In this document: positions 4,024 through 5,529 of the stretch, one piece after another
Position numbering within the stretch: the stretch's first letter is position 1
Layout: each line of letters starts with the position of its first letter
Assembly: GCA_903870175.1 (NCBI GenBank)
Contig: CAIQBY010000332.1
Coordinates: 1-39,541 of the forward strand
From: an uncultured Bacteroidota bacterium
Lineage (GTDB): Bacteria; Bacteroidota; Bacteroidia; 2-12-FULL-35-15
DNA length: 39,541 bases
Direction of reading: 5' to 3'
Made by a program: the position numbers and the translations under genes
The notes under the pieces: generated by a model
Databases searched by the model: none
What the model was told of the DNA's origin: nothing
What the model saw: only the letters and a program-made list of their open reading frames with translations

Positions 4024-4962
4024 ATGAAAAAAATTACATACTTCTATTTGTTGCTGTTAACAGCAGGAATTAATCGTCAACTATCTGCACAAGATTCTGT
4101 ATTCTTTGAAAAACCAACTAATGAAATAAGAATAGATACATTGCATCATACTAATTTATGGCAAATAGGCAAACCGCAAAAACCATTTTTTGTAAGTGCC
4201 TATTCACCGCCCAATGCAATAGTTACCGATACCATTAATAGTTATCCGCCAAACGATACTTCTTCGTTTATTTATGTAATCAGGCAACCATACACTCAAA
4301 GTTGCTATACCTGTATGGAGTTTTGGCAAAAGTATGATATGGATTCTATTGGCGATAAAGGAATTATTGAAGCGTCTTATGATGGCGGCAATTCGTGGCT
4401 AACAGTTAAAGATACATTTAATGTACCGCCATCGTATTCAAATTTTCAATGGAATAGTGATTACCACGAAACTTCAATGACATCTACTCCACATAAACTT
4501 ATAACTACAGGCAAATCGGATGGTTGGATACAATCACAATTTTGCTGGCAATGGTGGATTGGAGCCAAAAGAGATACAATAATTCCAAACCCGGATAGCC
4601 TTATGATTCGTTTTACTTTTATTTCAGATACTGTTACTCATCACAAAGATGGCTGGATGATTGATAATATTGTAACTGAAGATTTATGGTATATGTGTGG
4701 TGGTATTGCTGAAAATAATTTAAACGAAGATGTTGTTATTTCCCCCAACCCTTTCACTTCCCTCACAACAATTTCTTTTTCTGCTGAACAAACAAACACC
4801 ACAATAAAAATAACAGATATACTTGGCAAAGAAATAAAAGCAATAAACTTTACAGGCAAAGAACTAATAATAATGAAAGGTACCATGCAGGCAGGTATTT
4901 ATTTTGTACAAATAACAGATGCCAATAAAAATATAGTGAACAGGAAAGTGTTGGTAGAATAG
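4024..4962 (+). CDS. T9SS cargo protein with jelly-roll-like domain and type A sorting domain
   Basis: 312 residues. Signal peptide MKKITYFYLLLLTAGINRQ to about SAQ. Residues about 70-220 alternate beta-strands with EASYDGGNSWLTVKDT and DGWMIDNIVTED, a pattern found in MAM or concanavalin-like jelly rolls of secreted Bacteroidota proteins. The last about 80 residues are a T9SS type A C-terminal sorting domain (VVISPNPFTSLTTISF..., ending QITDANKNIVNRKVLVE), so the protein should cross the outer membrane by T9SS and be released or anchored. No catalytic motif seen. AGGAGG occurs 18 nt before the ATG, too far for a normal ribosome site. The last 53 bp are repeated at 5477-5529. Confidence 0.8.
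   Translation: MKKITYFYLLLLTAGINRQLSAQDSVFFEKPTNEIRIDTLHHTNLWQIGKPQKPFFVSAYSPPNAIVTDTINSYPPNDTSSFIYVIRQPYTQSCYTCMEFWQKYDMDSIGDKGIIEASYDGGNSWLTVKDTFNVPPSYSNFQWNSDYHETSMTSTPHKLITTGKSDGWIQSQFCWQWWIGAKRDTIIPNPDSLMIRFTFISDTVTHHKDGWMIDNIVTEDLWYMCGGIAENNLNEDVVISPNPFTSLTTISFSAEQTNTTIKITDILGKEIKAINFTGKELIIMKGTMQAGIYFVQITDANKNIVNRKVLVE
4910..4962 (+). repeat. 53-bp direct repeat, copy 1 (T9SS cargo tail)
   Basis: It encodes the last 16 residues and stop of the cargo gene (ITDANKNIVNRKVLVE). Copy 2 at 5477-5529 differs at two positions (A/G and T/G). The pair brackets the palindrome and protease pseudogene. Confidence 0.9.
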
Positions 4963-5042
4963 GTACAGATAACTAATCATACGAATTTACGAATCTAAAT
5001 ACATCGCGATTCGTAAATTCGTAATCATTAGTTATCCGTACC
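4963..5042. repeat. long palindrome immediately after the cargo stop codon
   Basis: The left arm 4963-4995 and right arm 5008-5042 pair almost perfectly (about 33 bp, GGTACAGATAACTAAT... with ...ATTAGTTATCCGTACC) around a 12-nt loop. A third, direct copy of the right arm (TAAATTCGTAACC...) lies at 5046-5072. Repeats built on TTCGTAAATTCGTAA are common between Bacteroidota genes. It could be a MITE or REP-type element, a terminator, or both. Confidence 0.85.
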
Positions 5043-5079
5043 AAGTAAATTCGTAACCATTCGTTATCTGTAAATACCG

Positions 5080-5087
5080 TATCTTTG
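5080..5087 (+). promoter_or_regulatory. Bacteroidota -7 box for the protease pseudogene
   Basis: TATCTTTG is an exact TAnnTTTG match, 15 bp before the ATG at 5103, which suggests a leader only a few nucleotides long. Confidence 0.6.
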
Positions 5088-5102
5088 TAAAAAAATAAAA
5101 CA

Positions 5103-5482
5103 ATGGGATTAGTATATAGTACAATATTTTTATCAAATCCATTAAAACCGGAAATGAAAAAAATAGAAGTAAAATGTTTGGTAGATAGCGGTTCAACGTT
5201 TTTATGTATTCCACAACATCTTGCCATTCAACTCGGAATTGAAGTTTTGGAAACAAGAGAAGCTACACTTGCCAATGGAAACAACGAAGTGGTGCCTTAC
5301 GGTGGACCTGTAAAAGTATCCTTCGAAAATAGAAATTGTTTACAGGAACATTAATTTTTGGTAACGAAGTATTATTAGGTGCAGTACCAATGGAAGATAT
5401 GGATTTAATAATTCACCCAAAACTATTTAAACTTTCTGTAAATCCCGAAAGTCCTAATATTCCAAGAGGAATAGTAAAATAA
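5103..5482 (+). pseudogene. clan AA (retropepsin-like) aspartic protease, frameshifted
   Basis: ATG 5103 opens MGLVYSTIFLSNP and the active-site segment VKCLVDSGSTFLCIP (Asp-Ser-Gly), then LAIQLGIEVLE and a beta-rich region ending at TAA 5352-5354. The family C-terminus continues in the -1 frame from about 5342: [20 protein letters not shown], then [14 protein letters not shown], stop TAA 5480-5482. Joined, the product is about 125 residues, the usual size of these small single-domain proteases, which act as dimers. One missing base between 5333 and 5341 explains the break. There is no slippery run, so mutation or a read error is more likely than recoding. The stop lies inside direct-repeat copy 2. 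The gene sits in a cassette with its own promoter. Confidence 0.75.
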
Positions 5483-5529
5483 CAGATGCCAATAAAAATG
5501 TAGTGAACAGGAAAGTGGTGGTAGAATAG
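5477..5529 (+). repeat. 53-bp direct repeat, copy 2
   Basis: It repeats the coding tail of the cargo gene (would read TDANKNVVNRKVVVE and stop) without an upstream cargo gene. It is offset from copy 1 by exactly 567 bp. Confidence 0.9.

Follow-up and report, generated by a model that had tools for sequence, protein, structure and literature searches.

A truncated T9SS cargo-gene tail behind a small protease gene, a candidate recombination scar in an uncultured Bacteroidota genome

The window, by which we mean the whole 39,541-nucleotide stretch of DNA analysed here (contig C332 of an uncultured Bacteroidota bacterium), contains a T9SS cargo gene followed by a small protease gene, at whose end the final 53 nt of the cargo gene occur a second time. 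The features of this locus, together with a related relic found elsewhere in the window, are listed below.

4024..4962, + strand: T9SS cargo gene, 312 aa, with a complete type A sorting domain (CTD) at residues 239-311
4910..4962, + strand: tail copy 1, the final 53 nt of the cargo gene, TAG stop included
4963..5042, no strand assigned: long near-perfect palindrome of 80 nt, a REP/MITE-like dispersed repeat
5080..5087, + strand: Bacteroidota -7 box TATCTTTG of the promoter ahead of the protease gene
5103..5482, + strand: clan AA aspartic protease gene (TIGR03698 family), frameshifted at about 5339-5341
5477..5529, + strand: tail copy 2, an orphan 3' scrap of a CTD, upstream cargo reading frame absent
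5477..5482, + strand: AAATAA, common to the protease stop region and the tail, likely the junction microhomology
5545..5587, + strand: terminator-like hairpin with 20-bp perfect arms and a T run, 3' of the scrap
23153..23233, - strand: second CTD relic inside the window, internally deleted

The type A sorting domain of the cargo reading frame at 4024-4962 (PF18962, 5.6e-10; TIGR04183, 5.5e-11) scores above both curated cut-offs (39.8 bits vs 27 and 42.3 bits vs 23, respectively). The 53-bp repeat of its tail, reported in the first-pass annotation, is genuine: the copies lie 567 bp apart and agree at 51 of 53 positions over the tail proper, or at 53 of 56 when 4910-4965 is aligned with 5477-5532 (BLAST E about 2e-20). 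The palindrome, the promoter box and the protease reading frame are all located between the copies, as had been described. The reading frame of copy 2 opens just seven codons before the copy itself. The homology of copy 2 to the tail starts exactly at the protease stop codon, and the protease TAA (5480-5482) does lie inside copy 2. The overlapping AAATAA is found both at the end of a related protease gene in genome G034 (GTAAAATAA) and in the tail (CAAATAACAG). The hairpin that follows the scrap is situated upstream of a convergent metallo-beta-lactamase gene. The second relic, at 23153-23233 on the - strand, is flanked by a cytidylate-kinase-like gene and a reading frame of short repeats. Tandem 21-bp repeats, translated through as repeated short peptides, are present at 2384-2604, and repeat-rich small frames of this kind recur beside cargo genes, either before or after them (e.g., 23307-23665).

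The small gene belongs to the clan AA TIGR03698 family, a widespread single-domain family present in many phyla, from which the window copy differs in being frameshifted and in lying between two cargo tails. The protease gene previously noted between the copies is present, but with a broken frame: residues 1-79 are encoded in one frame and the remainder in another, the T run at this point having three Ts versus four in the G034 relative, whose protease is intact (126 aa). The window gene may thus be a pseudogene or may contain a sequence error. An intact orthologue (L048, 62.3 bits) and a paralogue on contig C21 (69.1 bits) both exceed the TIGR03698 cut-off of 57.35. Homology between the window and the G034 protease unit begins at 5070, and the G034 protease also sits 3' of a cargo gene. 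Close relatives of the protease in G034 and G005 occupy other genomic places and have an identical stop-codon end that no scrap follows. Counted over codons of identical residues, synonymous differences between the window and G034 amount to 36 of 117 in the protease and 190 of 358 in the neighbouring metallo-beta-lactamase gene, and this lower divergence suggests that the protease may have been transferred after the species split. At 61 homologue loci from many phyla, no CTD scrap was seen after the protease stop in the flanks read by eye, and scraps are therefore no general feature of the protease gene.

We surveyed CTD tails across the draft genome from which the window derives (3.95 Mb in 423 contigs), with counts that combine searches and the stretches around matches, and with CTDs detected at the DNA level. 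While the two copies at the locus are real, their sequence is not unique, as the tail occurs about 40 times in the genome at this level of similarity. About 50 DNA-similar CTD 3' ends were recovered, comprising 13 scraps cut inside the CTD, 33-234 nt in length, about 28 full genes and about 3 intermediates. If cuts fell uniformly along cargo genes, about 15% would be expected in the CTD (binomial P about 7e-9, with an approximate expectation), which argues that the homologous segment guides the cut. An apparent common scrap length of about 100 nt proved to be an artefact of a limited reference set, and with more CTDs included the starts ranged between 38 and 215 nt. Among full-length cargo genes, 20 pairs share CTDs with 88-98% identity across 150 nt or more, and the gene bodies of 17 such pairs show no DNA similarity. 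Since near-identical CTDs are thereby joined to dissimilar bodies, we conclude that CTD-coding DNA has moved between genes.

The order seen in the window, an intact cargo gene, one or more small genes and then a scrap, was also found at C310, C35, C409, C249 and C21, the cargo side at C249 consisting only of a CTD at the contig end. Scraps next to a toxin-antitoxin pair or antitoxin-like gene also occur at C51 and C202, but there the place of the cargo end is taken by a palindrome (C51) or by the contig end (C202). The small genes beside scraps encode ParE, YoeB and YafQ toxins and antitoxins (Pfam assignments, including Unstab_antitox) in either orientation; the clan AA protease is the small gene at two loci, the window and C21, and toxin-antitoxin pairs fill this position more often. 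The C21 relic is a truncated CTD of about 215 nt that lies 8 nt after the stop of the paralogous protease. At C152, a scrap of 51-52 nt, close in extent to that of the window, follows by 4 bases the stop of a peptidase gene that reads as M48-type from its sequence. Overall, most scraps adjoin small genes, and at loci with preserved flanks the far side usually holds an intact cargo gene. Five of the scraps are not clearly beside a small mobile gene (C152, C409a, which follows another T9SS gene, C33, C117 and the window relic at 23153). The layout extends to relatives: G012 (L284) has a cargo gene, a reversed ParE pair and a scrap, and G004 (C80, L332 2300-5001) has a cargo gene, a reversed toxin-antitoxin pair, a scrap, a second toxin-antitoxin pair and another scrap. 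Recombination between two cargo tails that left one tail behind, an explanation already offered in the first-pass annotation, gains support from this recurrence in the genome and in G012 and G004, as does its suggestion that tails serve as an exchange site, from the repeated succession of cargo tail, small gene and truncated tail. The members of the G004 array are separated by repeated terminator-like stretches. At L374 (G000:C390, 1491-1778), a convergent ParE gene ends about 7-10 nt past the stop of an intact cargo gene, and the contig stops short of any scrap.

The junctions themselves are tight. For genes that read towards the scrap, scrap homology starts at -10, -6, 3, 4, 8, 18 and 41 nt relative to the stop, i.e., within 18 nt in six of seven cases, and in reversed pairs the scrap starts 27-45 nt ahead of the start codon, just past their promoters. 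The scraps at C35, C409, C249 and G004 match other CTD types better than they match the neighbouring full tail; for the scraps of the window, C310 and G026 (L339), the local tail ranks first or near the top as a match.

The association with toxin-antitoxin genes was also evident in toxin-first searches, in which CTDs were not used as the query. Of the genome's eight ParE/YoeB loci, five directly adjoin a CTD, against about 1.6% expected for each (P about 6e-8, approximate). Across the genus, CTD-like sequence, in some cases as short matches, accompanies 14 of 38 toxin-antitoxin loci versus 1 of 29 control loci. Related YoeB pairs at L351 (G000:C325, 1160-1790) and L349 (G000:C64, 1179-1202) have 24-26 nt upstream that are identical to a CTD 3' end, and at C325 such a stretch also directly follows the toxin stop; these matches at C64 and C325 were left out of the counts because they may be promoter sequence.

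The palindrome at 4963-5042 folds strongly as DNA (-22.4 kcal/mol, z -9.4) and is dispersed and intergenic. The loci examined contain 29 clusters of it, of which 12 lie next to a CTD stop codon, mostly starting 0-2 nt away, and the rest follow other sequence. It is an independent dispersed family, separate from the protease and tail unit. Its role as a required part of the unit is ruled out, as it is missing at C310, C249 and other cases and present elsewhere. No palindrome was found beside REP-type Y1 transposase genes, although a Y1 transposase exists in the genome.

We propose that recombination at a T9SS cargo tail, primed by multicopy CTD DNA, left this locus as a scar and displaced the resident tail as a scrap, and we assign this reading a probability of about one half. 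From the layout, we infer the following course. A break or invading strand in the resident CTD would pair with the CTD of a different cargo gene, one followed by a small gene and situated at another locus of the genome or on incoming DNA. Copying or crossover would then rebuild a full CTD and import its neighbour, here the palindrome and the protease. The far end would join the leftover piece of the resident CTD, here possibly via the 6-bp AAATAA, so that the old tail would be displaced downstream as an orphan. With a tail repeat on each side, such a small gene would need no dedicated recombinase: ordinary homologous recombination could later copy it to other tails or delete it from them. That addiction modules resist loss is probably the reason why the passengers persist. 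The copying model does not fully explain how closely scraps abut the small gene, and the direction of events (copying, crossover or transformation) is unreadable from one genome.

The main rival at this locus is simple decay, in which a second, tandem cargo gene was lost by a deletion that ran, via AAATAA, from the protease stop into its CTD and spared only the final 53 nt. Tandem cargo genes are indeed common (C310, C35, C409), copy 1 is, among full-length tails, the closest to tail copy 2 (96%), as expected for a tandem duplicate, the 6-bp microhomology suits a deletion joint, and C21 retains the longer relic of 215 nt after a paralogous protease. C21 is also the nearest equivalent to the arrangement by which the first-pass annotation proposed to recognise decay, a complete second cargo gene ahead of copy 2, of which no case was found in relatives. 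However, random deletions should leave long 5'-truncated cargo genes, and only about 3 such genes are seen versus 13 scraps; they should also leave CTDs that have lost their 3' ends, for which there is one case, C256. Moreover, the left breakpoints fall much closer to gene ends than expected, and the excess of toxin-antitoxin genes is left unexplained. A simple deletion is possible for the window locus alone, but it explains neither the distribution of cut points nor the toxin-antitoxin excess, and we consider it unlikely. Misjoining of short reads at the repeated tail could in principle have produced the scraps, given a draft of 423 contigs with many tail-like repeats and a protease frameshift that could be a sequence error; yet no two scraps share a junction, decay mutations are present in many of them (C51, C249, C35), and independently assembled relatives show the same layout, which makes such an artefact very improbable.

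We likewise regard as improbable an element that inserts next to tails, generating long and variable target duplications and carrying small genes as cargo. A full and a partial tail do flank the gene in the same orientation, the dispersed palindrome is present at several tails, and the genome encodes a REP-type Y1 transposase. Nevertheless, the segment contains neither a transposase nor a shared terminal repeat; the only reading frame between the copies with support as a gene is that of the protease. The short target duplication of fixed length typical of a transposon or insertion sequence was not found, as the repeated piece is 53 nt here and varies from 33 to 234 nt among scraps, several of which best match a non-local tail, and the palindrome is missing in several cases and was never seen beside Y1 transposase genes. 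The original suggestion of an insertion with a 53-bp target duplication is not supported, given the same length range and the scraps at C35, C409, C249 and G004, for which the local tail is not the best match. Units of a gene plus a tail, tails directly after stops and toxin-antitoxin passengers would fit integron-like cassettes in which the tail serves as attC. This reading is scarcely credible, being largely refuted by the results for integrase and attC fold: no integron integrase exceeds the TIGR02249 cut-off in the draft genome, which may be incomplete (best partial match 78.6 bits vs 265), and neither tail copy 2 nor the C152 tail folds back better than its shuffles (z +0.5 and +0.9), while the passengers face both ways and the tails are coding sequence. 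Searches of 36 genus genomes, with the N-terminal part of the cargo protein and the neighbouring downstream gene as queries, yielded no empty site; none of these genomes has a syntenic cargo locus, orthologues lie in other contexts, and the species are too distant for synteny. The segment may still be the new kind of mobile unit first imagined here, but no transposase at the locus, no integrase over the cut-off, no attC-like fold and no empty site were found that would speak for autonomous mobility.

For the displacement that we propose, the closest described process is, by analogy, Rhs C-terminal displacement, which yields orphan toxin-immunity modules (PMC5727410). In both, recombination in a conserved segment would swap the 3' part of a gene and leave orphan pieces and small passengers downstream. 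In Rhs genes, displacement affects the variable toxin tip, with the conserved core located upstream of it. Here, by contrast, it is the 3' secretion signal that is conserved, a non-functional scrap is displaced and the passengers (toxin-antitoxin pairs or the protease) are unrelated to the cargo. Layout and cut points agree, but the cargo gene is not an Rhs gene, and no allele pair from before and after an exchange was found. The proposed joining step resembles homology-facilitated illegitimate recombination, known from transformation experiments, in which homology anchors one end and a few base pairs join the other (PMC6382021); here it would be read from scars, and the anchor is partly duplicated. 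Integron gene cassettes, including chromosomal arrays with toxin-antitoxin cassettes (PMC11551772), offer a further likeness. They too are small genes each followed by a repeated sequence and are rich in toxin-antitoxin pairs, but the units described here are dispersed rather than in one array, occur in both orientations, have coding DNA as their repeat, and come with no integrase over the cut-off and no attC fold.

T9SS genomes encode dozens of secreted proteins with one common C-terminal signal. If the DNA of this signal is a recombination substrate, this would account for unrelated proteins gaining a secretion signal, for cargo loci gathering toxin-antitoxin pairs and for small genes spreading without transposases; scraps would then be readable records of events, countable in any T9SS genome. 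As a broader and tentative idea, which we ourselves hold to be doubtful, CTD-coding DNA might act, with no recombinase of its own, as a genome-wide platform for small genes, with toxin-antitoxin pairs and others that CTD repeats enclose being repeatedly copied, moved and excised by host homologous recombination between tails, and with the same exchange spreading sorting domains among unrelated secreted proteins. We found no report of such an arrangement in literature on T9SS with toxin-antitoxin genes, repeats, gene conversion or domain shuffling, in a search that covered few subscription journals. Short palindromic repeats (e.g., TCCTTCGACAAGCTCAGGATGAC) also lie in frame within CTDs at L242 (G000:C310), L210 and L190, where they are translated as SFDKLRMTQ immediately before the last conserved residues.
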